64,000 nt of DNA. Source: Ramlibacter sp. WS9 (GTDB lineage Bacteria > Pseudomonadota > Gammaproteobacteria > Burkholderiales > Burkholderiaceae_C). The stretch covers positions 124,001-188,000 of the forward strand of contig NZ_RKMB01000007.1 of the NCBI RefSeq assembly GCF_003797765.1. The letters are read 5' to 3'. The notes below the pieces were generated by a model that worked only from the letters and a program-made list of their open reading frames with translations, had not been told where the DNA came from and did not search any database. The stretch's first letter is position 1. The number at the start of each line of letters is the position of its first letter. Shown piece after piece: positions 30,368 to 52,187 of the stretch. The position numbers and the translations under genes were made by a program.

Positions 30368-31681
30368 CTACAGAACCAGCATCGCCCGGAAGTCATTCAC
30401 ATTGGTGTGGGTGGGGCCGGTGATCACCAGGTCGTCGAGCTGGCGAAAGTAGCCGTAGGCGTCATTGCGGTCCAGGTACTTGTCGATCTTCATGCCCAGC
30501 GACAACGCGCGCGACAAGGTCTCCGGTGCGACGAACGCACCCGCGTTGTCCTCCACCCCGTCGATGCCGTCGGTGTCCGCCGCCAGCGCCCACACGCCGC
30601 CCTGCCCTTGCAGCGCCTGCGCCAGGCCCAGACAGAACTCGCCGGCCCGGCCGCCCCGGCCGCGCGGTGTGCCTTCGGGCTGCTTGCGGATGGTGACCGT
30701 TGTCTCGCCGCCCGACAGAATCACGCAGGGCTTGGCGAAAGGCTGGCCGCGATGGGCCGCCGCGCGAGCCAAGGCCGCATGCACCTTGCCGACCTCGCGA
30801 GACTCGCCTTCCATCTCGTCGCTGAGGATGTAGGCCTCGATGCCCGCCGCCCTTGCCTCTTGCGCGGCTGCTTCGAGCGACTGTTGCGGCGTGGCGATCA
30901 TGTGGACCTCATGGCCGGTGAAGATTTCGTCGCCGGGTTTGGGCGTCTCCAGCGCGCCCTGCTCCAGCAGGCTCATGATGGCGCCCGGCACGGCGATGCC
31001 GTAGCGCTGCAGGATGGCGATGGCTTCGGCGCAGCTGGTGGCGTCGGGCACCGTCGGGCCGCTGGCGATGATGGACGGGTCGTCGCCCGGCACGTCGCTG
31101 ATCGTCAGCGTCACCACCTTGGCCGGCGCGCAGGCTGCCGCCAACCGCCCGCCCTTGATCCGCGAGAGATGCTTGCGCACGCAATTCATCTCTGAAATGT
31201 TGGCGCCCGAGTTCAGCAGCTGCTTGTTGATCTGCTGCTTGTCTTCGAGGGTCAGCCCTTCGGCCGGCAGCGTCAGCAGGGCCGAGCCGCCGCCAGAGAT
31301 CAGGCACAGCACCAGGTCGTCCTTCGTCAAGCCGTGCGCCATCGCCAGGATGCGCTGCGCCGCCGCGAGGCCGGCCGCATCGGGCACCGGATGGGCGGCC
31401 TCGACGATCTCGATGCGGGATTTGAGGCGTTCTGGGCGCGGGGGGATGTGGTGGTAACGCGTAACAACCAGGCCTTCCAGCGGCGCGTCCGCTGGCCACA
31501 GCGCTTCGACGGCTTGTGCCATGGACCCGCCGGCTTTGCCCGCGCCCAGCACGATGGTGCGGCCCTTGGGCGGTGGCGGCAGGAAGGCGGCCGTGTTGTG
31601 CAGCGGCAAGGCACGGCGCACGGCCGCGTTGTAGAGGTGTTCGAGGAAGCGGCGGGGCTCGGTGGCGGGGTTGGGGGTCAT
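30368..31681 (-). CDS. Glycerate 2-kinase, MOFRL family (GckA/TtuD-like)
   Basis: A 437-residue kinase converting D-glycerate to 2-phosphoglycerate. Visible motifs are the N-terminal IVLGAGKAGGSMAQAVEALW, the central CLISGGGSALLTLPAEGLTL, the VPGDDPSIIASGPTVPD loop and the C-terminal MOFRL region (GGRAGEFCLGLAQALQG; WALAADTDGIDGVEDNAGAF). Related enzymes (TtuD) act in tartrate and glyoxylate use; a tartrate-dehydrogenase-like gene lies 14 kb away at 44788-45861. A GGAGA lies about ten bases upstream of ATG 31681. Confidence 0.94.
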   Translation of the reverse strand: MTPNPATEPRRFLEHLYNAAVRRALPLHNTAAFLPPPPKGRTIVLGAGKAGGSMAQAVEALWPADAPLEGLVVTRYHHIPPRPERLKSRIEIVEAAHPVPDAAGLAAAQRILAMAHGLTKDDLVLCLISGGGSALLTLPAEGLTLEDKQQINKQLLNSGANISEMNCVRKHLSRIKGGRLAAACAPAKVVTLTISDVPGDDPSIIASGPTVPDATSCAEAIAILQRYGIAVPGAIMSLLEQGALETPKPGDEIFTGHEVHMIATPQQSLEAAAQEARAAGIEAYILSDEMEGESREVGKVHAALARAAAHRGQPFAKPCVILSGGETTVTIRKQPEGTPRGRGGRAGEFCLGLAQALQGQGGVWALAADTDGIDGVEDNAGAFVAPETLSRALSLGMKIDKYLDRNDAYGYFRQLDDLVITGPTHTNVNDFRAMLVL

Positions 31682-31797
31682 GCGGGGTGTCTCCGCCTGC
31701 CATTGTGACTCCGTAACCGGGTGGTAACTATGGCTGCGACGTGAGGACTCCTATAACCAAAACGTGTAGTCTGCGAACGATCAGACGAAGCAGATTG

Positions 31798-31817
31798 GCT
31801 ATACTGTACATATTAGC
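31798..31817 (+). promoter_or_regulatory. Palindromic operator overlapping the toxin-antitoxin promoter
   Basis: GCTATACTGTACATATTAGC is an imperfect palindrome centred on TGTACA, and it contains a TATACT -10-like hexamer (31800-31805). It lies 20 bp before the antitoxin start. Phd/YefM antitoxins usually repress their own promoter through such palindromes. The -35 element is not convincing. Confidence 0.45.
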
Positions 31818-31838
31818 TATTTTTTTGGGAGCCGGCAC

Positions 31839-32114
31839 ATGATCACCGTCACCTCCGTGGAAGCCCAGAACAAGTTCGGCCAGTTGCTGGACAAGGCCCA
31901 ACGCGAGCCGGTCACCATCACCCGGCATGGGCGGCCGGCCGCGTTCATCGTGTCGCCACAGGATATGGACGAACTGCTGGACGCGCGCCGCAAGCGCAGC
32001 AAGACAGTGACCGAGTTCGAGGCCTGGAGCCGGCGCGCGGCCGAAGCGGCTTCGCCGGACGCGGCCAAGCTCACCGAACAAGACATCGTCCGGTTGGTCA
32101 AGGAAAGCCGGTAA
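31839..32114 (+). CDS. Phd/YefM family antitoxin
   Basis: A 91-residue antitoxin. The N-terminal Phd/YefM DNA-binding fold is seen in ITVTSVEAQNKFGQLLDKAQ and VTITRHGRPAAFIVSPQDM. The C-terminal tail is charged and probably disordered, as expected for the toxin-neutralising part. GGGAG lies nine bases before ATG 31839. The toxin gene begins four bases after its stop, so the pair is co-translated. Confidence 0.92.
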   Translation: MITVTSVEAQNKFGQLLDKAQREPVTITRHGRPAAFIVSPQDMDELLDARRKRSKTVTEFEAWSRRAAEAASPDAAKLTEQDIVRLVKESR

Positions 32115-32118
32115 GCGC

Positions 32119-32538
32119 GTGCGGCTGATATTCGACACCAGCACCCTGGTGGGTGCTGCCCTGCAGATCGGCTCGATACCGCACCGCGCCCTGGCGACGG
32201 CACTGGCCACCGGCCAGCTATGCGCATCCGCCCAAACGCTGACCGAGCTGCAGGAAGTGTTGCGCCGCCCCAAGTTCGACCGTTACCAGCCGATCGGCAC
32301 GCGCAAGGAGTTCTTCGACATTGTGGCCACGGCAGCGGTCGTGTACGAGGTGTCGGCCAGCGATGAAGCCGCGATCACGCCCCGTTGCCGCGATCCGAAG
32401 GACGACATGTTCCTGGCGCTCGCGTCGGTCTGCCAGGCCGATGTCATCGTCAGCAGCGACGCCGACCTGCTCGCGCTCGATCCGTGGCACGAGACGCGCA
32501 TTCTCAAGGCTGCGGTGTACCTGGAACGGCACGGCTGA
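32119..32538 (+). CDS. PIN domain toxin (ribonuclease)
   Basis: A 139-residue PIN-domain protein of the putative toxin group (COG1569-like). It starts with GTG 32119. Acidic residues expected for metal binding are D6 (LIFDTSTLV), E43 (QTLTELQEVL), D92 and D96 (RDPKDDMFL), and D114/D116 (VIVSSDADLLAL). PIN toxins cleave tRNA, rRNA or mRNA when released from the antitoxin. The gene converges with the helicase gene, 18 bp apart, and marks one edge of the defence island. Confidence 0.92.
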   Translation: MRLIFDTSTLVGAALQIGSIPHRALATALATGQLCASAQTLTELQEVLRRPKFDRYQPIGTRKEFFDIVATAAVVYEVSASDEAAITPRCRDPKDDMFLALASVCQADVIVSSDADLLALDPWHETRILKAAVYLERHG

Positions 32539-32556
32539 AAAACGCTTGGGCCAGGA

Positions 32557-34677
32557 CTACTCAGACTTCAAGTCATCCAGAAATTCAGAGGCGGGCTCAG
32601 TGGCGGTGATGAGCAGATGATCTCTTGCACGCGTACATGCGACGTAGAGCAAATGCCGCTCGGTATCGTAGACCTCTTTCAGGTCCCCACTATCGGCAAT
32701 GCCTTGGATGCGGCTTTGCAGCGGAACCACTTCGTCGTCGCAGGCCATAACGACCACAGCGCGGAACTCCAGCCCCTTGGCCAGGTGCATGGTGCAGATC
32801 GAAACACGCGCTTCCTCGGGCCGAACCTTGTCGTCCAAGACGCAGAAGTCCAGACCAGCGGCTTTCACAGCTTGGTGGGCGCGGTCGAGTTGCACCTCTG
32901 ACCGTACGAAAACTGCGATCTCGGCAGGCCGAACACCGTTGCCACAACACGCTTTCAACCATGCGCCCACGCCAGCGGTCTCTTCTGTCTCGCCAGCGAA
33001 GGTGCGAACCAATGGCGGCAGGCCGTTGAAGACAGAAATTGTTCCCTTACGCGTTTCCACGTTGCCGTCCACATCCGCCACCTCAGGGCCGAGCAACCGA
33101 TCCGCCTGGGCGCGAATCTGGTGTGAGGTGCGGTAGTTGATCGTCAGCGTGCGGGATCGGCCACGCACGTCCACGCCCAACGACTTCCAGGAGAACGGCA
33201 GTTGGAAAATGCGCTGCCCCAAGTCGCCCGCGAAGAACAGACCGTTCGGCCTTGGGGCGCCGGCCTGTGCGCCCAGGGCGGCAAGAAATTTCAGCTGCGC
33301 CACCGACACATCCTGCGCTTCGTCGACCACGATGAAGTCGAAGGGTGGCTGCTCAACACCTTCGAAATGCTTTGCCAGTTGCATGAACATCTGCGCATGA
33401 GTAATCAAGCCCTGGTCTCGGAGCTGCGCCCGCGCGTGCTCCACCACCGCCCACACGGCCGCGCGCCGCACTTCGGGCAACTTGGTCTTGCGGCCCAGGC
33501 GAACCAGATCGCGGTAGGCCTCCCAGCTTTCCACCTGCCAGGCATCAATCAGGTCGTCCCATTCGGACTGCACAAAAGACAAAGTCAATGCGGGTGTGGC
33601 GGACGATCCTGCCTGTGCAATGGCCTCGTCCAGCGCCTTCTCCACGATTTGCCGTGGGGCAAGTTTCAGACGCCCCATCTTTGCGGCATAGAGCCGCTCG
33701 CCAACGCCGATGAGCGACAGCACCTCCAGCCGCTCGGCAAGCCTTGGCGTCGCACCGATCAACAGCCGCAGCTTCTGGTGCAGCGCACTGGCCAATGGCT
33801 CGGAAAACGTCGCCAGCAGCACGCGGCTTTCAGGATGGTTGCGCGCGAGGAACACGGCCCGGTGCAGCGCCACAATGGTCTTGCCGGTGCCCGCCGAACC
33901 GGATACGCGTGCAGGGCCGCTGTAGTCACGCTCCACCCATTCGCGCTGCGCAGGGTGCAGGAACGTCGTCCACTTTTCCCAGGGGGAAGAAAGGGCCCGC
34001 TCCAATTCCTCCACGTCGTTCATCACTCTGAAGCGGCGCTGCGCGTCGGGGTGGGCGAACGGGTCGGTGCCCACCGGAGCCACTTGTGCCACCGATGGCG
34101 TGCCGCCTGTCGCAATTTCCAGCAGTGCTTCGGCAGCTTCCTTCGGCAGATGGTCCGTCAGCGCCATCAAGGCGTCTTCGTCCGCCACTCGCACATCGGC
34201 CAGCCACTCGGTCGGGACGCCATAACTCAGCAACTCGCTATCAGATCGATCAGCGAACAGCTGAACTTTTTGGGGCGCCTCAATGGTCCAGGACCGAGCT
34301 GCGGGCTCGGCCGCAACCAGCGGCCGGGTAACTGCTACCTCCTCCACCCGTTCGCGAATCTCGACCCACTGCGCGGCACCCGTCGTAGGGTGCGTTTCCA
34401 GCTTACGACGCTCCGCCCAGCGGTAGGCTTTGTCATGGTGATCCACATAACAAAGCAGCAGGCTGGCTGGCGTCTTGTGGACGATCAGCCGGATGTCGCT
34501 GCCGACCCGCACCGACCAGAAGTGCTTGTCTTTGGCTTTGTCGAGCTTGTGCAGACTCATGCCCGGATTGACAGGGTTCAACTGCAGATCGAAAGCCGTG
34601 GTCTTGACGAGCTTTTGCTCTTCGCCAGTTAGGCGGGCGAGGCTATCGGTAAAGGTGTCGGCGATGCGGAAGTCCAT
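32557..34677 (-). CDS. UvrD-family helicase with N-terminal RelE/ParE-like domain
   Basis: A 706-residue protein. Residues 1-95 resemble the RelE/ParE toxin fold (FTDSLARLTGEEQKLVKTTA; HFWSVRVGSDIRLIVHK; LLLCYVDHHDKAYRWAERR). A linker reaches to about residue 235. The rest is a superfamily 1A helicase core: Walker A GSAGTGKTIVALHR (260-267), Walker B FIVVDEAQDVSVAQLKFL, motif IV-like LTINYRTSHQIR, motif V TMHLAKGLEFRAVVVMA and motif VI LLYVACTRARDHLLI. Last gene of the restriction-type operon, 24 bp after the GIY-YIG-like gene. A helicase acting on nucleic acid with a toxin-like module suggests defence, but no described system with exactly this layout is known to me. Confidence 0.88.
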   Translation of the reverse strand: MDFRIADTFTDSLARLTGEEQKLVKTTAFDLQLNPVNPGMSLHKLDKAKDKHFWSVRVGSDIRLIVHKTPASLLLCYVDHHDKAYRWAERRKLETHPTTGAAQWVEIRERVEEVAVTRPLVAAEPAARSWTIEAPQKVQLFADRSDSELLSYGVPTEWLADVRVADEDALMALTDHLPKEAAEALLEIATGGTPSVAQVAPVGTDPFAHPDAQRRFRVMNDVEELERALSSPWEKWTTFLHPAQREWVERDYSGPARVSGSAGTGKTIVALHRAVFLARNHPESRVLLATFSEPLASALHQKLRLLIGATPRLAERLEVLSLIGVGERLYAAKMGRLKLAPRQIVEKALDEAIAQAGSSATPALTLSFVQSEWDDLIDAWQVESWEAYRDLVRLGRKTKLPEVRRAAVWAVVEHARAQLRDQGLITHAQMFMQLAKHFEGVEQPPFDFIVVDEAQDVSVAQLKFLAALGAQAGAPRPNGLFFAGDLGQRIFQLPFSWKSLGVDVRGRSRTLTINYRTSHQIRAQADRLLGPEVADVDGNVETRKGTISVFNGLPPLVRTFAGETEETAGVGAWLKACCGNGVRPAEIAVFVRSEVQLDRAHQAVKAAGLDFCVLDDKVRPEEARVSICTMHLAKGLEFRAVVVMACDDEVVPLQSRIQGIADSGDLKEVYDTERHLLYVACTRARDHLLITATEPASEFLDDLKSE

Positions 34678-34701
34678 GCTGCGCCAATCGTTTGGCAGTC
34701 G

Positions 34702-35334
34702 CTAAGCGTCAAGCGGGGCGAAATCGGAAAAGTCGGTCGGCATAAGCTCCCAAAGCGGGCGCCTCCCGATCGCTTTCAACGGCTTTTTCCACCAATCCGT
34801 CCCCTCGGCATAGTGCCGATTGTTGCCGGCGCTCTTATTGAGTATCGGGAACCTCCGCTTCTCGTCCATGCCGCCGTACTGCGCGGAGAAGTAGTCGAGC
34901 ATGAGATGTTCAACGTGGACGAAATAGTTCTTTGTTCCGGGACGGGCGGGTTTTGCGAAATAGAAGTCGAAGTTCGCACCTGAGAGACCCAACATGAAAT
35001 CAAACAGCTTTCGGTCAAAGTGCGTCTTGATTCGCCCCATGATGTTGCCTCGTCCTATGTAGATAACCTGGGATCTCTTGTGGCGATATTGAATCGAAAG
35101 AGGATTTGAGAGGGCGATCACATAGACGCCCGTCTTCACAGACTCGACGTTGAAGCCCTGCTCCCAGCAAGCAGATTTAATCGCAAATAGGGCCTCCTTG
35201 ACTGCTCGATTTCGAAGTTCTGCCTGGACTTTTTTGTCGTAGTCTTCGTACAAGGCGAGATCAAAGCCCGCATAGCGGGCATAGACGGCAAGGCTCTGTC
35301 CGCGAACTCCGTACCAAACGTTTTTCTTCATCAT
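34702..35334 (-). CDS. Putative GIY-YIG nuclease in the restriction operon
   Basis: A 210-residue protein. The residues fit a GIY-YIG endonuclease core: GVYVIAL (69-75) as the GIY strand, VIYIGRG (90-96) as the YIG strand, R101 and H105 in IMGRIKTHF, a candidate metal-binding E142 in VEHLMLDYF and N166 in ILNKS. The N-terminal about 60 residues (WYGVRGQSLAVYARYAGFDL) are unassigned. The base composition is visibly lower in GC than the flanking housekeeping genes. It sits 17 bp after mod and 24 bp before the helicase, so it is probably co-expressed with the type III restriction genes. Alternatively it is a passenger of unrelated function. Confidence 0.72.
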   Translation of the reverse strand: MMKKNVWYGVRGQSLAVYARYAGFDLALYEDYDKKVQAELRNRAVKEALFAIKSACWEQGFNVESVKTGVYVIALSNPLSIQYRHKRSQVIYIGRGNIMGRIKTHFDRKLFDFMLGLSGANFDFYFAKPARPGTKNYFVHVEHLMLDYFSAQYGGMDEKRRFPILNKSAGNNRHYAEGTDWWKKPLKAIGRRPLWELMPTDFSDFAPLDA

Positions 35335-35351
35335 TCGCCTAAGTCTTTTTC

Positions 35352-38225
35352 CTACTCGACCCGGAACACTTTCATCACTTCGTCCCCGAGGTGATTGATA
35401 ACCTTCACTGCAATCCGCCCTGACTTCGGCCTATCGAACGGCCGTGACGTATCGCTGTTCAGTGTGGCCCAGGCGTCTTCGTTGATCTCCGCCTTGAGCG
35501 TGGTCTTCAGCGCCTTGTAGGGGTCGTTTGCTCCGAGGAAATAGGCATGGCGGACGAAGAAGCTTTCTTCGTTGTAGTCGGTGTCGATGAACCAGCAGGC
35601 GATGCCGTCGGCGCCATCGCTTCGAACTTCACCGGTATTGGGGTGGAACACGTCCACGCCGTTGACCTTGACGCGCACCTGGCCGTCCTCGGCATTGAGG
35701 ATGTCGATGTCGGGCTCGCCGAAGATGACAAAGAGATTGCCCTTGCCGGTGTTCTTCAGGTCTTCCGCCATGTGGAGATCGGCGTTCATCCGGGCCTTGA
35801 GCACCGGGATGCGACCCAGCTTGTCGAACTCCGATGAGTGCGCGTCGTAGTTGAAGGCGCAGGCGATCAAGACATCGAAGCCGGAATCGCCGGCTTCGCG
35901 AGCGGCGGCCACCAGGTCAGGGCGGGAGACGGTGCCGAATTCTGGACCGATGAAGACGGCGGCACGCTTCTCTCCGGAGCCCTCTATGTACCGAGCATCG
36001 GCACAAATGAGTTCGCCCGGCCAAGGCGTCAGCGACGTGAAGGCGATCTTGTCCTCTTTGTGCGCCTGTTGCACACCCGCAGTCTTGAGGTTCTCCAGGA
36101 TGATCTGGACGAAGTTGCGTTCGGCGCTGTATTCGGCATCGCGTTCGGCTGTCTTGAGATTGTTGGGGTCGATCAGTTCGTCGTTTTCGTCGACGCCCAG
36201 TACGCGGTGCGGCGAAAGACTCTCCACCGTGAATGGGCCAGCCACGCGCACCTTTTTCTTGTCGTCGTAGGGCTTGTCGTAAAGATACTCGAACTCGGCT
36301 TTGGCGGCGATGGAGGCATCGATCTCGCGCTGGCGAGAAATCCGTTGCGTCCACCATTCGGCGTGCAATTCCTTCGCCTTTTCTAGGCGTACGTCGCGGT
36401 CTGTCTTGCCAGTGGGGTTGAGCAGATGCTTGTCGGTCAGTTCGCGGGGAATTTCCCACTCCTGCCATTTCTGCCCCAACGCAATGTTCAGTTGCTCGCG
36501 CAGCGGCTCCAACATCTTCTGGTACTTGTCCCAGATGACATTAATCTCAGCGTTGTTGGCGATCGACTTCAACGTGATGTGCGGCACGCGCTCGTTGACG
36601 AATCCTTGCCGAACGTTGCCACGGGTCGGGGCGCTGGACGGCACTGTACGAGCGACCTCAGCTTCTTTGATCTGTCCGTCACGGCTGTCGGCGAGCAGAT
36701 AGTAAGGGTAGCGTGCGCCCATGATGCGTGCACGGGCCAGTGTTAGGGCAACGCGAGAGGTGTCAATGGTGATCCAGCGGCGACCCCACTGCTCTGCCAC
36801 ATATGCAGTCGTGCCCGAGCCACATGTCGGATCGAGAACAAGATCACCCGGATCCGTACACATCAGAAGACAGCGTTGGACGGTACGCGCCGACGTTTGG
36901 ACGATATAGGTCTTTTCCTCTGCGCGACTCGAAAACTTAACGTCGCCCCAGATGTTGTTGACCGCAACGGCGGGAAAGTCATTGATGAACCGAACGTAGC
37001 TCAGACTCGTGCCTCTCGCCTCAAGCCGCTTTGCGTACGCAAGCCGCATCATGCCCGACTCGTTTGTTTTCCATCGACTCGTGATACTCGGTCGAAACTC
37101 ACGACCATCAACTGCAACTGGAAACCAAGATGCTGCACCTTCTCCTTTTTCTCTTCCGAGACTCTGGCTCGTGATGTTGTCTTGCCGATAGACCCGCAGG
37201 TCATCGCCTATAGCCCCTGCATCGATCTTCTCCTCGCGAGTCATTGGGCGCCGCTCAAGTGTTGGGAGTTGCACTCGCGAATACTCGGCGAATCCTGCCT
37301 GCTCACGCGACTTGGAAATCCACGCATCGCGGAACTTCATGCCCCCCTTGTTCTTTGCGTACCAAAGCACGTAGTCGGTCACTGGCGATAAGTAATCCTG
37401 GGTCTGGCTACTGGTCTTCTCGATCGTGACGAGGGCAGCACAGTTATCGTCACCAAATACCTCATCCATAAGCGCCCGAACGCGATGTACGTTCTCATCC
37501 CCGATTTGCACAAAGATCGACCCCGAATCGGTCAACAAGTCCCGTGCCACCGTTAGCCGATCACGCAAATAGGTCAGGTATGAGTGAATCCCGTGCCGCC
37601 ACGTATCCCGAAACGCCTTCACCTGCTCCGGCTCGCGCGTGATGTGATCGGCGTTGCCATCCTTCACATCACGGCTGGTCGTGCTCCACTGAAAATTGCT
37701 GTTGAATTTGATGCCGTACGGCGGGTCGAAGTAGATGCACTGCACTTTGCCGCGCAGGCCTTCTCGCTCCGCCAGTGACGCCATCACCGACAGGCTGTCG
37801 CCCAGGATCATGCGATTGGCCCAATGCGCGTCGTGCTGGTAGAACTCAGTCTTGGCATCGGTGTCGGGCAGGCCGTTGAAGTCGGCGAACAGGTCCACTT
37901 GTTCGGCTGTCGGTTCCTTGGCCTCGCGCCGCCGCTCGGACTCGCGCTTCAGGTCATCGATCAGCACCTTGGGGTGCACCTTCTCCTGGATGTAGAGCGG
38001 CGGCGCCTGCACGATCAGGTTTGACCAGTCCTGCTCGTCCTTGCCGCGCCAGACCAGCTGTGGGTCCAGGTCGCGGTTGCGGCGCTCGTATTCCACGCGC
38101 ACGGGCTTCTGTTCGTCCTTGGCCATCACCGACTGGTATTCGGCGGTGGGGATGTTCTTGCGCTTGGCGTCGTCGTGCTTGAGCGTTTCGACAACGAGGG
38201 GGGCTTTGGGTTGCTTGGTGGCCAT
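35352..38225 (-). CDS. Type III restriction-modification system methyltransferase (Mod)
   Basis: A 957-residue DNA methyltransferase that recognises and methylates the target and also confers specificity on Res. The catalytic motif DPPYGIKFN (167-170) precedes the target-recognition region (about 265-445) and then the AdoMet-binding motif LDPTCGSGTTAYVAEQWGRR (from 464). That is the beta-class order used by type III Mod. The C-terminal half is a long region typical of the larger Mod/adenine-specific methylases. The start lies one base after the dinD stop. The target-recognition stretch (about 36890-37450) is richer in A/T than the rest of the gene. Confidence 0.92.
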   Translation of the reverse strand: MATKQPKAPLVVETLKHDDAKRKNIPTAEYQSVMAKDEQKPVRVEYERRNRDLDPQLVWRGKDEQDWSNLIVQAPPLYIQEKVHPKVLIDDLKRESERRREAKEPTAEQVDLFADFNGLPDTDAKTEFYQHDAHWANRMILGDSLSVMASLAEREGLRGKVQCIYFDPPYGIKFNSNFQWSTTSRDVKDGNADHITREPEQVKAFRDTWRHGIHSYLTYLRDRLTVARDLLTDSGSIFVQIGDENVHRVRALMDEVFGDDNCAALVTIEKTSSQTQDYLSPVTDYVLWYAKNKGGMKFRDAWISKSREQAGFAEYSRVQLPTLERRPMTREEKIDAGAIGDDLRVYRQDNITSQSLGREKGEGAASWFPVAVDGREFRPSITSRWKTNESGMMRLAYAKRLEARGTSLSYVRFINDFPAVAVNNIWGDVKFSSRAEEKTYIVQTSARTVQRCLLMCTDPGDLVLDPTCGSGTTAYVAEQWGRRWITIDTSRVALTLARARIMGARYPYYLLADSRDGQIKEAEVARTVPSSAPTRGNVRQGFVNERVPHITLKSIANNAEINVIWDKYQKMLEPLREQLNIALGQKWQEWEIPRELTDKHLLNPTGKTDRDVRLEKAKELHAEWWTQRISRQREIDASIAAKAEFEYLYDKPYDDKKKVRVAGPFTVESLSPHRVLGVDENDELIDPNNLKTAERDAEYSAERNFVQIILENLKTAGVQQAHKEDKIAFTSLTPWPGELICADARYIEGSGEKRAAVFIGPEFGTVSRPDLVAAAREAGDSGFDVLIACAFNYDAHSSEFDKLGRIPVLKARMNADLHMAEDLKNTGKGNLFVIFGEPDIDILNAEDGQVRVKVNGVDVFHPNTGEVRSDGADGIACWFIDTDYNEESFFVRHAYFLGANDPYKALKTTLKAEINEDAWATLNSDTSRPFDRPKSGRIAVKVINHLGDEVMKVFRVE

Positions 38226-38226
38226 G

Positions 38227-39069
38227 TCAGGAGTCGAGCGCGTCGGGGTTCTTCAGGGATTTCTTGTCTTCCGAAAGCAGGCGGCGCTCGACCTTCTTCA
38301 CGTCTTCTGCGGGCGGCAGGCTTTCGGGGCGGATGCCCCGTTCCAACAGCGTTTTCCGCACCGCTTCGTTGTTGGTGATGTGCTCCTTCGAGATGGCCCG
38401 CTCACTACCCAGCTGATGCTGACGCGCATTGAAGATGGTGATTTCGGTGGCGAAGTCCTTGGCCTTCAGGATGATGGTCGGTGCAAAGTCGGCCAACGGC
38501 CGGCTGTCGGGCACCTTCCACTGTGCCTTCATGGCCTGGGTGGATTTGCCGAACAGCGCATGATCGCCCTTGCTACGGATGAGCGCAAAGTCTTGGTTGT
38601 TACCGGCCTGCTCAAAAATCACGTCGGAAAGCTCCTTCTCCGTCGCGGTGAGCTTTTTTCGGGCAGAGATGCGCTCTGCATCCAGCAGGCGCTGCTCGAT
38701 CAGCTCCGCGCGGCGCGTCTGAACGGCGAAATAGGTTTGCGCAAAGGCGATTTCCTGCTTCTTGGGGTCGCCGTTCTGGGCGATCAGGTAGCAGGCGTAG
38801 CGGGTGAGCATCAAGTCATCCACTTCGCGCTGGCTGCCTGAGCCGAGGTCGACCATTTTGTTGACGTCAACAAAATGGTCTGCGACTGCATGGCCGGACA
38901 CTTCGCAAGCCACTTTCGCCTTGGAAATGACAGTCAAGAAATTGCGCCACTCCGCATAGCCCAACAGGAACTGCAAGTCTCGGGCAAGCCAATACTCGGT
39001 TCCGCCCTCCGTCTGCTGCGCATGGCCCTCAAAGCTTGTGGTCAACGAATGGACAAGTTCTTTCTTCAT
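38227..39069 (-). CDS. dinD: DinD-family DNA-damage-inducible protein
   Basis: A 280-residue DinD homologue. Family features are TEYWLARDLQFLLGYAEWRN, MLTRYACYLIAQNGDPKKQE, IAFAQTYFAVQTRRAELIEQ and a C-terminal ITNNEAVRKTLLERGIRPE. In E. coli DinD is SOS-induced and antagonises RecA filaments. Here it lies between res and mod with gaps of 14 bp and 1 bp. It therefore cannot have its own LexA-controlled promoter and is expressed with the restriction genes. A 30 bp perfect DNA palindrome occurs in its coding sequence at 38851-38880. Confidence 0.92.
   Translation of the reverse strand: MKKELVHSLTTSFEGHAQQTEGGTEYWLARDLQFLLGYAEWRNFLTVISKAKVACEVSGHAVADHFVDVNKMVDLGSGSQREVDDLMLTRYACYLIAQNGDPKKQEIAFAQTYFAVQTRRAELIEQRLLDAERISARKKLTATEKELSDVIFEQAGNNQDFALIRSKGDHALFGKSTQAMKAQWKVPDSRPLADFAPTIILKAKDFATEITIFNARQHQLGSERAISKEHITNNEAVRKTLLERGIRPESLPPAEDVKKVERRLLSEDKKSLKNPDALDS
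38851..38880. repeat. Perfect 30 bp palindrome within dinD
   Basis: The left arm is GACCATTTTGTTGAC and the right arm is its exact reverse complement with no loop, centred on GACGTC. It encodes the DHFVDVNKMV stretch of DinD. The AT-rich codons used here (TTT, GTT, AAA) stand out against the GC-rich surroundings. Confidence 0.9.
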
Positions 39070-39083
39070 TTTTCGCTCCTCGC

Positions 39084-40976
39084 CTACTGAGATTTCAACA
39101 GCGCCATCACCATTCGATCGAACGCAGCCTCGACCTTTTCGGCGAAATCTGCTTGCATCTGGTAGACCTCGGTGAACTCCGCGAAGCCCCAGCGCCCATG
39201 CGTGCCGAGGTTATTGACGCCGGGAATCCAGTAGACATCCATCGTCTCCTTCTTCACCTTCGCATCTTCGCCGCGAAAGCCCTTGATCTCGACGACCAGA
39301 TTGAGAAGATCGCTCTCGCCGTGGCCATCGTCGACACGGACGATGAAGTCGGGCCGGTAGTGGTGCATCTCGGAGCCATACCGATAAGGCACTTCCAGCC
39401 CCAGATTGTGGTTCTTCACGTAGGCCCGCACGCGTGGGTGTGCCTCGGCCACACGGCAAAATTCGGCCTCCCAATCGCTGTCCAGAATGACCCAGTTCAG
39501 TTGGCAGGCTTTCGCGCTGGTCTCCCAGCGCTCCGTCTTCGAGGTATTGAAGTTGACGTGTGCGGTGCTGCCCGTGGGGTTGTACGGGTCGAGTACGGCT
39601 TTGATGGGCCGGGTGCCGATCAGCGCGCGGTTGATGCCGGCGGTGATCTTGTCGCAGGCCATGTCCGCCAGCATCTTGTATTTGAGTTGGGCCGGATACG
39701 TGCCACCCATGCACTTCAGATAGCCGCCATCGAGCCACTGGCGCGCGATGCGCTTGAGTTGACCGAACAGGTGCAATTGCGGCTCGCCGTCGGCGTCGCG
39801 CCACTTGCTCAGGACCAGGTGAGACGTGAGTTCGTACACCACCTGAGACGGCCGGACGTCGCCGGTGTGCACCAGGTTCAGGTCTACGGTTTCGCCGATG
39901 ATGCCGGACTGGCGCGTCTCGGTGGCACCGACCAGCTCTGGGGTCAGCGTCAATACCGATTCGTCATTGAACTCGGCGGTGAGGCGCTCTTCGGGCAGCT
40001 CCGCACGATAGCCTTGGACGCGTGGAAATCGAATTTCCAACGCATCACGGTCGGGGCGGACGGCCTTGACCTGAATCGTCTCGCGCGGCTTCTGCGGCGG
40101 CGCGACCACCGGTTTGGCATTGAAGTCAAACGGGATGCCGAGCACGTCGGCGTACTCGACGTTGAAGAGCCCTTCTTCATTCAGTTCGTACGACTGCCTG
40201 CGTAGCGCACGACCAATGACCTGCTCGCACAGCAATTGGGTACCAAAGGCGCGGACGCCCAGCACGTGCGTGACGGTGTTTGTGTCCCAGCCTTCAGTGA
40301 GCATGGATACGGAGACAACGCAGCGGATGGAGTCGCCCAGGCGCCCGGCCTTGCCGACCGTGTTCATTACCTCGCGCAGTAGGTCCTGGTCCGTAATGTT
40401 CTGGCCTGCTTGCGAATCGCCGGTGCGCTCCACGATTTCGCGGCGAAAGCGCTCGATCTCGTCGGCCGCCATGCCGCGGAAGTTGTCGTCCAGCGCTTCG
40501 CCGGATTCGAGTTGCTCGCTGTCGATCAGCAAGGTGCGCGGCCGGCCGAGCGCGTTGCCGTGTTCGTCGTGATTGCGAAAAAGGGGCAGCCGGCCTTCAA
40601 TCAGCTTGCTGGTCCCATCCTTGTGAGGCTGCTGAAATCCGGAGATGTAGTCGTAGACCAGCTTCGATGCCGAAGTGTTGTTGCAGACGACGATGAAGCA
40701 AGGCGGCACGGAAATCTTTTCCTGCACCCAGAGCGCGAAGGTCTTTTCGTAGTGGCCGTACAGCGCTTCGAGAGCGGTTTGCAGCTGGGTTGGCAGGTCA
40801 AGCGGATTCAGCCCTTCTGCCTTGCCCCGGCCCTTCTTGGGCATCTTGGCGCGGATGTGTTCCCAGAGGTTGCGAAACATCGGCATCTCGGCGCCAGGAA
40901 TGTTGTCGGCCACCGGCACACGGGGCAGCTTGACGATGCCGCACTCGATAGCGTCCATGAGCGAGAAGTCGCTCAT
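39084..40976 (-). CDS. Type III restriction enzyme Res, C-terminal part (after in-frame stop)
   Basis: A 630-residue frame continuing the Res protein beyond an amber codon. It starts MSDFSLMDAIECGIVKLPRV, which aligns with the middle of intact Res proteins. It contains the second helicase domain (VSMLTEGWDTNTVTHVLGVR; LLCEQVIGRALRRQSYE) and a C-terminal PD-(D/E)XK nuclease (HYRPDFIVRVDDG, then NLVVEIKGFRGED). The ATG at 40976 lies one codon past the stop, so reinitiation is possible, but only a weak Shine-Dalgarno is present. Without the N-terminal ATPase half it should not restrict DNA unless the halves associate or the stop is read through. Confidence 0.85.
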   Translation of the reverse strand: MSDFSLMDAIECGIVKLPRVPVADNIPGAEMPMFRNLWEHIRAKMPKKGRGKAEGLNPLDLPTQLQTALEALYGHYEKTFALWVQEKISVPPCFIVVCNNTSASKLVYDYISGFQQPHKDGTSKLIEGRLPLFRNHDEHGNALGRPRTLLIDSEQLESGEALDDNFRGMAADEIERFRREIVERTGDSQAGQNITDQDLLREVMNTVGKAGRLGDSIRCVVSVSMLTEGWDTNTVTHVLGVRAFGTQLLCEQVIGRALRRQSYELNEEGLFNVEYADVLGIPFDFNAKPVVAPPQKPRETIQVKAVRPDRDALEIRFPRVQGYRAELPEERLTAEFNDESVLTLTPELVGATETRQSGIIGETVDLNLVHTGDVRPSQVVYELTSHLVLSKWRDADGEPQLHLFGQLKRIARQWLDGGYLKCMGGTYPAQLKYKMLADMACDKITAGINRALIGTRPIKAVLDPYNPTGSTAHVNFNTSKTERWETSAKACQLNWVILDSDWEAEFCRVAEAHPRVRAYVKNHNLGLEVPYRYGSEMHHYRPDFIVRVDDGHGESDLLNLVVEIKGFRGEDAKVKKETMDVYWIPGVNNLGTHGRWGFAEFTEVYQMQADFAEKVEAAFDRMVMALLKSQ

Positions 40977-40979
40977 GGT

Positions 40980-40982
40980 CTA
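40980..40982 (-). other. In-frame amber codon splitting res
   Basis: TAG at the position of a Trp expected in the type III Res family. The codons on both sides read CCC TAG ACC ATG AGC in one continuous frame. It is either a real nonsense mutation, a sequencing error, or a suppressed or programmed stop. Confidence 0.85.
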
Positions 40983-42134
40983 GGGGAACAGGGTGCCTTC
41001 GGCGTAGCCCGAGCCGCGCAAGAAGAACGGCGTGGCCGACAGGTCGAAGACGCGGGCAACGCCGAGTTTGCGATTGACGGCTTCGAGCCCGGAAATCCAC
41101 AAACGAGCTGCTTCGTTGTTTTCTTCGGCTTCCTTCTTCTCTTCGCCCTTCAACTCTTCGTCTGCTACCTTGGCGCCGGGCTTCTCTCGATAGCAGTGGT
41201 GGGCTTCGTCGTTGACGACCAGGATGTTGCTCATGCCCATCAGGTCGGGCATGACGCGCTGGAGCATCTGGCCTTCGGTCTCCAGCGTATTCAGTTCGTC
41301 GCCGCCCCGGCCCTGCAACAGCAAGCGCCCGCCCTTGGACAACTCCATGCGCTCGCGCAGCTTGAACGCGTGGTAATTGGTGATGACGATCTTGGCGCGC
41401 TCCAGATCACCCAGCATGTCACTCGGCACCAGTTCGCGGCTGGCGTAGTAGCTGTCGGGGTCGTTGGGCTGCAGGACGCGCAGCCGGTCCTTGATGGTGA
41501 GCCCGGGCGCGACCAGGAGAAAACCACGGGTGAATTTCTTGCTGTTCGGCCGGCGCACCGCGTTCACCGTTTGCCAGGCAATGAGCATCGCCATCACCGT
41601 TGTCTTGCCCGCGCCGGTCGCCAGCTTGAGGGCAAGGCGCATCAGTTCGGGGTTGGCGTCGTTGTTGGCATTGGCAAGGTGATCCATGAAAACCTGACCC
41701 ACTTTGCCCAATTGGGGCGCCACCTCGGTCAACCATATGGCGGTTTCCGCAGCCTCGACTTGACAGAAGAATGGGCGAACACCGCCAAATTCGTGATGCC
41801 GCCAGTGCTGCAGCAGGCGTGCCGTTTCCGGCGTCACGCGCCAATCGCTCGGGTTCTTCAGCGCGCGCCACTTGTCCACCTCGGTGCGGACGGAGTTGAT
41901 GATTGCGGAGTGATATTGCTGCGCCTGGCTGGAAAGCGCTTCGTCGAAAAGGAGGGCCTCTTGCTGGGCTCCCTTTTGCTTCTTCGGTTTGGGAATCGGC
42001 GTGATGAACTCCGCCGGCCTGCGCTTGTCGATGATCTGCTGGGTCGGCTGGCCTGTTTTGTCAAGTTCCCAATAGCGTCCAGGATACCCGTAAGGGGAAT
42101 TCAGTATTGGTTTCTCGAAAAACAGATTCGTCAT
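40980..42134 (-). CDS. Type III restriction enzyme Res, N-terminal part (truncated by amber codon)
   Basis: A 384-residue frame holding the first helicase domain of Res: Walker A LATGAGKTTVMAMLIAW, DEAH-type motif VNDEAHHCYRE and motif III FDLSATPFF. It ends ...YAEGTLFP at TAG 40982-40980, exactly where family members continue with Trp (F-P-W-T-x-S-D-F). One base change, TGG to TAG, explains the break, and the frame continues without shift into the 39084-40976 part. It is the first gene of the operon. The upstream gap (42135-42210) shows no clear promoter. Confidence 0.85.
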   Translation of the reverse strand: MTNLFFEKPILNSPYGYPGRYWELDKTGQPTQQIIDKRRPAEFITPIPKPKKQKGAQQEALLFDEALSSQAQQYHSAIINSVRTEVDKWRALKNPSDWRVTPETARLLQHWRHHEFGGVRPFFCQVEAAETAIWLTEVAPQLGKVGQVFMDHLANANNDANPELMRLALKLATGAGKTTVMAMLIAWQTVNAVRRPNSKKFTRGFLLVAPGLTIKDRLRVLQPNDPDSYYASRELVPSDMLGDLERAKIVITNYHAFKLRERMELSKGGRLLLQGRGGDELNTLETEGQMLQRVMPDLMGMSNILVVNDEAHHCYREKPGAKVADEELKGEEKKEAEENNEAARLWISGLEAVNRKLGVARVFDLSATPFFLRGSGYAEGTLFP

Positions 42135-42210
42135 GGTCCCTGCAGCCTAAGGCCGTCGTCCTCTCGGAGGATTCTAGAGACAGACGAGCTACCGGGCCAC
42201 TCGAAATGAC

Positions 42211-42239
42211 AAAAGCCCGGCGATATTCGGGCCGGGCTT
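42211..42239 (-). terminator. Intrinsic terminator after the Bug-protein operon
   Basis: AAGCCCGGC and its complement form a 9 bp stem with a nine-base loop. On the minus strand it is followed by TTTT. It lies about 50 bp beyond the stop of the Bug gene (42289), and would end the tartrate-dehydrogenase-like operon before the res gene. Confidence 0.75.
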
Positions 42240-42249
42240 GATTTGGAGA

Positions 42250-42280
42250 CATGGATTGCGGGTCGGAGCCCGCAATGACA
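42250..42280. repeat. Palindromic repeat, family C variant
   Basis: CATGGATTGCGGGTCGGAGC followed by CCGCAATGACA. It has the same outline as the reverse complement of the 24366 copy (CATGGATGCC...GGCATGACA), but the stem has changed on both sides (TGCGGG/CCCGCA), which points to conservation of structure rather than sequence. It sits between the Bug gene stop and the terminator. Confidence 0.7.
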
Positions 42281-42288
42281 GCCCTTAG

Positions 42289-43254
42289 CTACTTTTTGCC
42301 GAGGCCGAGCCGCTGGGCACCTTCGGTGTACAGCTTGGTCTTGTCCTTCATGAACGCGTCCATCTGGTCCACGCCCACGTTGACCAGCTCGAAGCCGCTC
42401 TTGGCCGCCAGCTCCTTCATCTCAGGCTCGTTGTTCAACGCGGCCCACAGGTCCGACAGGCGCTTGCGCTCGGCCGACGGTGTCGACTTGGGCACGCCGA
42501 TGCCGCGGTAGGCGCCGTCGACCCAGTCCACGCCCAGCTCACGGAAGGTCGGCACGTCCGGCAGCAGGGGATGCCGCTTTTCCATCGCGACGGCGAGCGC
42601 GCGCACCTTGCCCTTGTTGTTGATAGCGAACGCCGTGTACGTCACGGCGCCGTCGATCTGGTTGCCCACCACGGCCAACGACATGTCGCCCGTGCCCTTG
42701 TAGGGAACGTAGGTGCTCTTGATGTTGAATGCCGCGTTCAGGCGCTCATGTGACGCATGGTTCGCCGAGTTGAGGCCCGAGCCGCCCAGGCTCATCTTGC
42801 CCGGATCCTTCTTCGCGGCCGCGATGAAGTCCTGGAAAGTCTTGTGCGGGCTCGCGTCGGGCACCACCAGTGCATCGGGCGTGAAGTGGAACCAGAACAC
42901 CGGCGTCACATCGGCGGTCTTGTACTGCACCTGGCCTTCGATCGGCTGGAACACGATGTGCGGCAGGTTGACGCCCACGATGTTCAGTCCGTCGCCCGGA
43001 AGCTGGTTCATCTGCGACCACATCAGGCCGCCGCCGGCGCCGGCCCTGTACTGGATGATGGTGTCGACCGCAGGGCATTTCTTCTTGAGCACGACTTGCT
43101 GGTGGCGCGCCGACAGGTCCGACTCGCCGCCCGGCGGGAAGGCTTGCCAGTAGTTGACGTTCTTGTCGGGACAGCCTTGGGCCATTGCCGAAGTGGCCGA
43201 CAGCGCCAGCGCTACAAAAGATGCTGCGGCATAGGTTGCGATACGGAAGTTCAT
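42289..43254 (-). CDS. Bug-family substrate-binding protein (second copy)
   Basis: A 321-residue periplasmic binding protein with signal peptide (cleavage after SAMA). It differs from the copy at 28280 in the opening (VNYWQAFPPGGESDLSARHQ) and resembles a more distant Bug branch; YVPYKGTGDMSLAVVGNQID is the usual family loop. Last gene of an operon with the amidohydrolase (23 bp upstream) and the dehydrogenase; the ligand may be a dicarboxylate such as tartrate, by context only. Confidence 0.92.
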   Translation of the reverse strand: MNFRIATYAAASFVALALSATSAMAQGCPDKNVNYWQAFPPGGESDLSARHQQVVLKKKCPAVDTIIQYRAGAGGGLMWSQMNQLPGDGLNIVGVNLPHIVFQPIEGQVQYKTADVTPVFWFHFTPDALVVPDASPHKTFQDFIAAAKKDPGKMSLGGSGLNSANHASHERLNAAFNIKSTYVPYKGTGDMSLAVVGNQIDGAVTYTAFAINNKGKVRALAVAMEKRHPLLPDVPTFRELGVDWVDGAYRGIGVPKSTPSAERKRLSDLWAALNNEPEMKELAAKSGFELVNVGVDQMDAFMKDKTKLYTEGAQRLGLGKK

Positions 43255-48904: not shown

Positions 48905-50713
48905 CTAGCGCTGTACCGCCAGCCAGCCGTCGATCTTCGCCTCGAGCATGCGCAGCGGCATCGAGCCCTCGCCCAGCACCTGGGTGTGGAAGGCGCGGAT
49001 GTCGAAACGCGCGCCGAGGCGCTGGCGTGAACGTTCGCGCAGCTGCAGGATCTTCAGCTCGCCCACCTTGTAGGCCAGAGCCTGCCCGGGCCAGGCCATG
49101 TAACGCTCGATCGCGCGGCGCGCATCGTCTTCGGTGGAGCCTTCCTTCTCGCGCAGGTACGCGATGGCCTGCTCGCGCGACCAGCCCTTGTCGTGCAGAC
49201 CGGTGTCCACCACGAGGCGCAGCGCGCGATGCAGCTCCATCAACAGGCGGCCGAGGTAGGCCGTCGGATCGTTCTCGTACAGGCCCAGCTCCCGGCCCAG
49301 GCTCTCGGCGTACAGCGCCCAGCCTTCGCCATACGCGTCGTACCAGGCGCTCTTGCGGAACTTGGGCACGTCCAGTTCCTGCTGCGAAGCCATGTGGTAG
49401 TGGTGACCCGGCTGGCCCTCGTGCAGGAACAGCGCCGTCATCTTGACGGTGCGGTACTTGGCCGGGTCCATCACCACGGTGTAGAACGCACCCGGCCGCG
49501 AACCGTCGGTGGCCGGCGGCACGTAGTGGTCGGACGCCGTCGCGCGGCGGATCGGCTCCACCACGCGCACGTCCAGCGCCGCCTTGGGCGCCCGCTCGAA
49601 CAGGCGCGGCAGGCCCACCTTGACCTTCTCGTTGAGCGCGCGGAACGCCGCCAGCACTTCTGCCTCGGTGCGAAACGGCGTGAGCTCGGGCCGCTGGTCC
49701 AGCGACTTGAAGAACGAGTCCAGGTCGCCGTCGAAGCCGAACTTCGCCTTGACCTGCTCCATCTCGCCGCGGATGCGCGCGACTTCCTTCAGGCCGAGCT
49801 CATGGATTTCCTGCGGCGTGAACGAAGTGGTGGTGCTGGAACGCGCCAGCATGCGGTACCAGTCGGCGCCGCCGCGCAGCGCGCCGATGCCAGCCGTGGT
49901 GCGCGCCTGCGGCAGGTAGCGCTCGGCCATGAACGTGCGCAGGCGCTGCACGGCAGGGATCACCGACTGCACCACGGCGGCGCGGTAGGCGGCGGTGATC
50001 CGTTTGCGGTCGTCCGCGCGAACCTGCGCGGGGAACTCGCGCGTCGCCGCCAGATAGGGGCTGGCCAGCGGATCGGCCGTGAGCAGCGCGTCGAGCTGCG
50101 GCATCGTCCGCTCGACCAGCGGCCGCGGCAGCACGATGCCGCGCGCGATGCCTTGCTCCATGTTGGCGATGGCCTGCGCGATCCAAGCCGGCAACTTCTT
50201 CAGGCGCGCGAGGAAATGGTCGAAATTGGCCGCTGTTTTCATCGGCTGCGCGCCGGTGCCGCCGGCCCACTGCGCGAGGCGCACCGGCATGCAGTCCATA
50301 TGGCCAACGGGCGTGAGGTACCAGGGATACGCCAGCCGGTCGAGCCTGTCCTGCGCGTCGTACGCGAGCAACTCGTGCGTCATGCGTGCATCCGCCGGCA
50401 ACTGCGCGGCGTCGACCGTCTTCAACGCGGCCTGCGTGCGTTCGTACAGGCGGCGCTGGCGCAACAGGTGCTCGGGTGCGATGTCGATCTCGAAGGCGGC
50501 TTCGTACTTCGGGTCGCCGAGGTTCTCGGTCGCCTCGATCGGGAACAGCGCCAGCGAGGCGTTGTAGTAGTCGTCCGCGATGCGGTTGAGGCGGGCAATG
50601 GCCGGACTGGCCGCGGGCGCGGCCGACGCGTTGCGCCAGGCCGCGGAACCCAGCAGCAGGCTTGTGGCCAGGCTGGCACCGAGGCGGCGGCGCGTGAGGT
50701 GAAGGGTATTCAT
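48905..50713 (-). CDS. DUF885 family protein (metallopeptidase-like, exported)
   Basis: A 602-residue protein with a signal sequence (RRRLGASLATSLLLGSAAWR). The DUF885 core includes a metal-binding-like HEGQPGHHYH near residue 456, ADWYRMLARSSTTTSFTPQE and AWYDAYGEGWALYAESLGRE. The H-E-G-x-P-G-H-H pattern replaces HExxH in this family. Start MNTLHLTRRR (50713) is preferred over an in-frame upstream ATG at 50896 that would add 61 residues before the signal peptide. Converges with the hydrolase gene. Function probably peptidase. Confidence 0.9.
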   Translation of the reverse strand: MNTLHLTRRRLGASLATSLLLGSAAWRNASAAPAASPAIARLNRIADDYYNASLALFPIEATENLGDPKYEAAFEIDIAPEHLLRQRRLYERTQAALKTVDAAQLPADARMTHELLAYDAQDRLDRLAYPWYLTPVGHMDCMPVRLAQWAGGTGAQPMKTAANFDHFLARLKKLPAWIAQAIANMEQGIARGIVLPRPLVERTMPQLDALLTADPLASPYLAATREFPAQVRADDRKRITAAYRAAVVQSVIPAVQRLRTFMAERYLPQARTTAGIGALRGGADWYRMLARSSTTTSFTPQEIHELGLKEVARIRGEMEQVKAKFGFDGDLDSFFKSLDQRPELTPFRTEAEVLAAFRALNEKVKVGLPRLFERAPKAALDVRVVEPIRRATASDHYVPPATDGSRPGAFYTVVMDPAKYRTVKMTALFLHEGQPGHHYHMASQQELDVPKFRKSAWYDAYGEGWALYAESLGRELGLYENDPTAYLGRLLMELHRALRLVVDTGLHDKGWSREQAIAYLREKEGSTEDDARRAIERYMAWPGQALAYKVGELKILQLRERSRQRLGARFDIRAFHTQVLGEGSMPLRMLEAKIDGWLAVQR

Positions 50714-50854
50714 GGCGGGCGATGCTACCGAAATCCGGCACCTGGCGTTGTCACAGGGTTGAAAGTTCCGTAGGGGCCGGCGATGCCTCCTGACAGAATC
50801 GTGGAGCGGAACGCGCGGCGCGTGCCACCATCCGCATCCACACGAGGAGTAGCC

Positions 50855-51253
50855 ATGTCCGACACATGTGAAGCGCTGGTGCGGCGCCACTGGCACGAAG
50901 CCAACCGGTCCGCGTGGGACAGCTTTGCCGCCCTGCTGTCGCCCGGCCTGGTCTACGAAGTACCGCAGACGCGCGAACGCATCCGCGGCAGCGCGGGCTA
51001 CGTGGACCTGTTCCGCACCTGGCCCGGCCCCTGGCGGGCCGAGGTGGTCAACGTCATCGCGCAGGCGGGCAAGGCGGTGACGGTCATCGACTTCGTCACC
51101 GCCACCGAGCGGATGACGGGCATCACGTTCTTCGAAATTGAAGCAGGCAAAATAGCCCGCGTCACGGACTTCTGGCCCGAGCCCTACGAGCCGCCTGCCC
51201 GGTTTTCGAAATACATTGAGCGCTACGCGCCCTTGCCCACCGACGCTTCATGA
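50855..51253 (+). CDS. NTF2-like (SnoaL-type) small protein
   Basis: A 132-residue protein with the cone-shaped NTF2-like pattern: long N-terminal helix (CEALVRRHWHEANRSAWDSF), LLSPGLVYEVPQTRERIRG, and the beta strands AVTVIDFVTATERMTGITFF and IARVTDFWPEPYEPP. Such proteins serve as isomerases, dehydratases or ligand carriers. GAGGAG lies nine bases before ATG 50855. It starts a run of four unrelated small enzymes on the plus strand. Confidence 0.87.
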   Translation: MSDTCEALVRRHWHEANRSAWDSFAALLSPGLVYEVPQTRERIRGSAGYVDLFRTWPGPWRAEVVNVIAQAGKAVTVIDFVTATERMTGITFFEIEAGKIARVTDFWPEPYEPPARFSKYIERYAPLPTDAS

Positions 51254-51280
51254 CCCCTCCACGGCTTCTCCTCTCCGTCC

Positions 51281-51649
51281 ATGCTCCACCACATCTCCCT
51301 CGGCGTCACCGACCTGAATCGCTCGGCGGCGTTCTACGACGCCGCCCTTGCGGCGCTGGGCTACGTGCGCGTGTGGTCGGACGACACCGCCATCGGCTAC
51401 GGCCCTCCCGGCGGGGGCGACAAACTGGCGATCAAGCTGCGTGAGGGTGCCGCGGCGCCCGGGCCGGGCTTCCACCTGGCGTTGGCCGCGCCGGATCGCG
51501 CTGCCGTCGACCGCTTCCACGAGGCCGCGCTGCGCCATGGCGGCCACGACAACGGCGCCCCCGGCCTGCGCCCGCACTACGGGCCCGATTACTATGCCGC
51601 GTTCGTGATCGACCCGGATGGGCATCACATCGAGGCAGTGATCAATTGA
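51281..51649 (+). CDS. VOC family (glyoxalase/bleomycin resistance fold) protein
   Basis: A 122-residue protein with two beta-alpha-beta-beta-beta units: MLHHISLGVTDLNRSAAFYD with the first metal-ligand His, then FHLALAAPDRAAVDRFHEAA, and the closing AAFVIDPDGHHIEAVIN with the last Glu ligand. Members are dioxygenases, lyases or resistance proteins. The gap to the preceding gene is 27 bp; the specific reaction is unknown. Confidence 0.92.
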   Translation: MLHHISLGVTDLNRSAAFYDAALAALGYVRVWSDDTAIGYGPPGGGDKLAIKLREGAAAPGPGFHLALAAPDRAAVDRFHEAALRHGGHDNGAPGLRPHYGPDYYAAFVIDPDGHHIEAVIN

Positions 51650-51659
51650 GCGCAACGAA

Positions 51660-52187
51660 ATGACAGCCACCATCAACTCCCTGCCCGCCCGGATCCGCCG
51701 CAGCGCCCGCATCTCCGGCCGCTTCGTCCTGCGCTCGGGCATGGTCAGCGACACGTATTTCGACAAGTACCAGTTCGAGTCGGACCCGCTGCTGCTGCTC
51801 GCCATCGCCACCGAAATGGCGCGGCTGATCCCCGCCGGCACCGAAGTGCTGGCCGGCCTCGAGATGGGCGGCATCCCCATCGCCACCATGCTCAGCCAGG
51901 TCACGGGCCTGCCCGCCGCCTTCATCCGCAAGGAACCCAAGGAATACGGAACTTGCCGCTATGCCGAAGGTGCGTCGTTGGCCGGCAAGCGCTTCGTGCT
52001 GATCGAGGACGTGGTGTCGAGTGGCGGCGCCCTCAGCGACTCGTTGGCCAAGCTGAGGGCCGACGGCCTGGAGCCTGCGGGCGCGATCTGCGTGATCGAC
52101 CGACAGACCGGGGGGCGCGAAGCTCTGGCCACGCACGGGCTGTCCCTCAATGCGCTGTACACCTTCGATGACATCGAGCGTGCCTGA
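51660..52187 (+). CDS. Orotate phosphoribosyltransferase-like protein
   Basis: A 175-residue type I phosphoribosyltransferase. The N-terminal FVLRSGMVSDTYFDKYQFES matches the orotate-binding region of OPRTs; VLAGLEMGGIPIATMLSQVT and IRKEPKEYGTCRYAEG are OPRT-like, and the PRPP loop reads FVLIEDVVSSGGALSDSL. It is shorter than the usual proteobacterial PyrE (about 215), closer to archaeal-length enzymes. It may therefore be a second OPRT or a paralogue acting on another base. No pyrimidine genes are adjacent. Confidence 0.88.
   Translation: MTATINSLPARIRRSARISGRFVLRSGMVSDTYFDKYQFESDPLLLLAIATEMARLIPAGTEVLAGLEMGGIPIATMLSQVTGLPAAFIRKEPKEYGTCRYAEGASLAGKRFVLIEDVVSSGGALSDSLAKLRADGLEPAGAICVIDRQTGGREALATHGLSLNALYTFDDIERA

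Follow-up and report, generated by a model that had tools for sequence, protein, structure and literature searches.

Can the res gene of a type III restriction-modification system still yield a working enzyme when a single amber codon splits it beside an intact mod gene? The question is raised by the window, that is, the whole 64,000-nt stretch of Ramlibacter sp. WS9 DNA analysed here. Type III systems methylate one strand of an asymmetric site and cut about 25 bp away. Our analysis indicates that the locus likely records a recent and real nonsense loss of the cutting component of this phage-defence system, with Mod kept.

Layout of the interrupted res gene

The res frame runs on the minus strand from 42134 to 39084 (1017 codons, the reverse complement of 39084-42134). 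The original prediction had located the gene correctly but left its strand unstated, and had described a single in-frame amber codon at 40980-40982. The TAG was found there as codon 385, with both sides open in one frame, and neither a frameshift nor a further internal stop was detected in the Res frame. The normal end at codon 1017 is likewise TAG. The C-terminal open frame begins at an ATG (40974-40976) two codons past the stop. The halves jointly match the profile of the BPTD_3080 family (NF046055, length 970) over the ranges given in Table 1, and only two profile positions fall between them. Read through the stop, the frame scored 1369.8 bits where the family cut-off is 800, compared with 808.4 bits for the C half and 540.1 bits for the N half.

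Both halves keep all motifs, as had been predicted. The first helicase half precedes the stop, with Walker A (ATGAGKT, residue 172), DEAH (309) and SAT (366), while the other helicase half (QVIGRALR, 638) and the PD-(D/E)xK nuclease motif (PD...EIK, 928-951) follow it; the break separates helicase motif III from the second helicase half. The Pfam RE_endonuc match in the C half reached 23.3 bits, marginally below the cut-off of 23.4. The SF2 helicase motifs and PD-(D/E)xK nuclease of a type III Res are therefore present, though in two pieces, and an amino-methyltransferase Mod is encoded near res. The one uninterrupted chain expected of the BPTD_3080 family is broken by the TAG at codon 385, and from its sequence the window res is filed as a presumably broken gene of this restriction family (NF046055).

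Table 1. Features of the res-mod locus, in window coordinates
Feature	Coordinates	Strand	Evidence or remark
Res N-terminal part, 384 aa	40980..42134	-	NF046055 profile 1-369, E 1e-161; Pfam ResIII
In-frame amber codon 385	40980..40982	-	Trp column in relatives
Res C-terminal part, 630 aa from in-frame ATG	39084..40976	-	NF046055 profile 372-969; ends TAG
DinD-like protein, 280 aa, between res and mod, accessory	38227..39069	-	NF008573 383.9 bits; PADLOC PDC-S13
Mod, type III DNA methyltransferase, 957 aa, intact	35352..38225	-	PADLOC MTase_III 1542 bits; Pfam N6_N4_Mtase
Accessory protein, 210 aa, GIY-YIG-like by eye only	34702..35334	-	matched in 1/80 related loci
UvrD-type helicase, 706 aa, downstream of mod	32557..34677	-	Pfam UvrD-helicase, UvrD_C
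Island holding the system, ~10.5 kb	31730..42287		GC 0.56-0.64 per kb vs 0.64-0.70 around

Comparison with close relatives by tblastn gave one ungapped-frame alignment spanning almost the entire Res query (residues 1-1016 for L036, 3-1009 for both L090 and L038, and 1-1009 for L040). The nearest relatives are 92-93% identical along the full length, which rules out chance as an explanation. Solved structures were searched by sequence at E <= 1; no match was returned for the C half, and the sole match for the N half was a ribosomal protein (E 0.93). An AlphaFold model of the intact relative L036, built with 63 other rows, had a mean pLDDT of 51.5 and only 23-24 near the Trp that aligns with the stop, so that the model is uninformative on the role of this residue. 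Literature searches returned no paper naming BPTD_3080 and none on an amber-pseudogene res of a type III restriction system.

The interrupted codon among relatives

A total of 144 Res loci were pooled from genome searches and one contig scan (80 of 367 kept). The column of codon 385 was spanned by 126 of them, or 123 distinct loci after removal of three duplicates. Trp occupies the column in 122 of the 123, the remaining one being the window with its stop; counted among the 122 are the distant second copy carried by the window genome itself (L002) as well as L036 and L060, contigs that come from a single Rhodoferax genome. The Trp codon is TGG in all relative rows of two alignments (96/96 and 29/29), and the residue is retained in relatives as distant as 30% identity. 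The proposal of a family Trp within F-P-W-T-x-S-D-F thus holds for the Trp itself (122/122), whereas the full motif is present only in most close relatives, distant ones retaining only the W and SDF. TGG to TAG as the cause, also proposed originally, agrees with a single nonsense codon where relatives carry Trp TGG.

Internal stops are rare in the family. Among 104 distinct full-length members, 102 have none, unlike the window and L124 (genome G394, from another family of the order), which have one each at different places. In L124 it is a single in-frame TAG aligned to window residue 800, a Trp, and both Trp columns (codon 385 and residue 800) are invariant in 64 relatives. The window genome also carries a second, distant and uninterrupted Res-family member on contig C103, with 36% identity. 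A quick protein tree places the window Res with two Rhodoferax UBA6134 contigs and two other Burkholderiales copies, in a five-row clade with an SH-aLRT of 99. A locus from the genus of the window genome (L003, genome G097) is identical across the gene to that of Ramlibacter ginsenosidimutans (L040). The three other genomes with the best-scoring copy of the flanking gene (G218, G246 and G241) have no Res-family match at E <= 1e-100. Plasmids were searched at the same threshold, and relatives of the Res C half occur in 23 of 72,556 records, the best at 70.6% identity.

Age of the stop and alternative explanations

Selection on Res was estimated with a codon model (seven rows, 940 columns). The dN/dS on the window branch was 0.018 versus 0.035 elsewhere (likelihood ratio 6.62, window lower), and a value of 1 on this branch was rejected (67.46). 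Four control tips gave 0.023, 0.009, 0.062 and 0.057. By half, the window branch had 0.008 for the N half and 0.025 for the C half, the latter no different from its own background of 0.032 (likelihood ratio 0.47). The low value of 0.018 leaves at most about 0.6% of the window branch, at its end, unconstrained, or at most about 1.8% for the C half alone, both bounds being interpolated on a grid at a drop of 3.84. No relaxed selection after the lesion was seen on the window branch with these seven rows, which fits a very young stop, a base error, or two halves that both still work alike. The claim of a recently inactivated nuclease stands in that a nonsense loss, if the base is real, would be recent, there being no sign of free decay in res.

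An error of base calling or assembly, with the actual res intact, would accommodate this pattern, as the lesion is a single substitution and both Res halves are under full purifying selection; the window genome is also a draft (180 contigs, 2.79% contamination). However, isolated substitution errors are uncommon in a consensus, and we regard an error as unlikely. Looking through the window for other coding-like frames interrupted by a single stop gave two further pairs; this also speaks against an error, but the screen overlooked the Res pair itself and is thus a weak control. Purifying selection on both halves along the window branch would likewise agree with ribosomes that stop at the TAG and restart at the ATG three bases downstream, the two Res chains assembling and still restricting DNA. 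The site reads TAG-ACC-ATG, with the ATG in frame immediately past the stop, and only two residues are missing between the halves. Nevertheless, the missing Trp is present in 122/122 relatives, none of which is split at that column, and Met already occupies the restart position in 78 of the 122, indicating that the ATG need not have arisen for restart. No Shine-Dalgarno-like match of at least 3 bases was found in the 20 bases before the ATG at 40974-40976, a weak point against restart since the own start of res has only 3-base matches. Because Walker A and DEAH are confined to the N half, the C half could presumably act only together with it. Restart with retained cutting is, on this evidence, very unlikely.

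The original prediction had also offered a suppressed or a phase-switched state, and neither was borne out. If the TAG were read as an amino acid, full-length Res would be made from a frame that is open on either side, and L124 likewise carries TAG in place of a Trp codon, which is why its genome was searched for a suppressor as well. However, no CUA anticodon was found in the tRNA-like places of either draft genome, 51 in the window genome and 57 in G394. The 51 places were found with Rfam in an assembly that is 99.38% complete; ARAGORN typed 50 of them, none as CTA, and in the 51st, on contig C105, the anticodon loop is five bases long and lacks CTA. The single ARAGORN-untyped place in G394 has a loop read as GAA, and the selenocysteine tRNA model gave nothing over its cut-off in the window genome. 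TAG is moreover a common normal stop here: of 27 coding-like frames of at least 200 codons in the window, it terminates 8, Res itself among them. Suppression or recoding of the amber is therefore highly improbable. Phase variation of type III systems is known from pathogens (PMC2667262), and a reversible switch of Res could be imagined by analogy, but the lesion is a substitution and not a repeat change. A phasevarion is marked by a simple repeat tract in its mod or res gene, and none was found here: across 32501-42300 mononucleotide runs reach at most 6, units of four to six nucleotides never occur in three or more copies, and TRF returned three weak two-copy arrays, none at the stop. We give switching hardly any credence.

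Deamination at Dcm-type methylated sites is a mutation hotspot, and this origin of the stop was considered but is not supported. Two C5 methyltransferases, together with a Vsr match on contig C99, were found in the window genome, one of the methyltransferases adjoining an NgoMIV-type nuclease gene; against NF007772/PRK10458 the two scored 52.2 and 35.2 bits, far below the cut-off of 710. Several side observations were made during these searches. The two further split-frame pairs lie on opposite strands of the same stretch, at 48905-51958 (minus) and 50774-51649 (plus), with a single TGA each. Contig C105 of the window genome (L183, G000; 62 kb) carries tRNA-Arg(acg), tRNA-Val(aac) and the degenerate tRNA with the five-base loop, and is possibly a mobile element. 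A 2-kb stretch of contig C139 in G394 (L256, 6300-8700) holds 15 ARAGORN tRNA genes and one more by Rfam, and looks phage-like.

Mod, known type III systems and the surrounding island

In the preferred reading, a recent nonsense loss of cutting, translation of res would halt after codon 384. With neither the nuclease nor the second half of the helicase on the N-terminal piece, restriction would be off. Mod, whose frame is intact as originally predicted (one frame, 957 aa), remains encoded and is probably still methylating. We infer that cutting was lost while methylation continues. According to PMC8259958, type III Mods generally methylate without a partner, but for two m4C type III systems methylation in E. 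coli required co-expression of Res. Since those two systems needed Res, Mod as a working solitary methylase is plausible rather than established.

The window system resembles type III systems, including the m4C subgroup, in the features given in PMC8259958: helicase motifs and PD-(D/E)xK in Res, a Mod with DPPY, and adjacent genes. The extra ATPase gene described there has SF2 helicase motifs and lies 5' of mod, whereas the window has a UvrD-type helicase 3' of mod. Mutations that inactivate res while mod is kept have been reported in Haemophilus and Neisseria (PMC2667262). The Haemophilus influenzae and Neisseria cases are alike in that the restriction subunit is mutated and Mod kept, and unlike in that mod is phase variable there, the window system having no repeat tract (PMC2667262). 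The lesion is an ordinary event, of a kind already on record. It provides a clean case, with an upper age bound, of a restriction subunit lost beside a kept methylase gene, and its weight would grow only if the split Res remained functional as a pair of chains, or if Mod had acquired a separate role.

The neighbours of res and mod were compared among related loci. The DinD-like gene was matched in 10 of 80, partially in some. NCBIfam, PADLOC and Pfam searches at E 0.001 assigned the 210-aa protein to no family. Of the related loci, 48 extend at least 9 kb downstream; Mod was present in 47 of these and the UvrD-type helicase in 33. In all 33 the helicase gene comes after res and then mod on the same strand, with other sequence between in some. 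By eye only, the N-terminal 90 residues of the window helicase are RelE-like. The sole locus of the 48 without a Mod match is L036 (Rhodoferax sp. UBA6134), the nearest Res relative. In this 21.9-kb locus the window Mod was unmatched in 8.8 kb upstream and in 10 kb downstream, indicating either that this Res has no Mod of its own or that its Mod lies farther off.

The system lies in an island of lower GC content (Table 1). The island is absent from genome G225, where its flanks adjoin (positions 2860 and 2868 of L209), and the flanks are at most 0.2 kb apart in G209 (L208). Genome G204 has sequence matching window positions 30370-32490 (L206/L224) beside the same flank gene, and a Res-family match was absent in the genome search of G204. 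Inside the island, two short plus-strand frames at 31770-32500 appear by eye to be Phd-type antitoxin-like and PIN-type-like. Elsewhere in the window, a 1762-aa protein is encoded on the minus strand at 54152-59440, in which 14 WD40 stretches pass the Pfam search.
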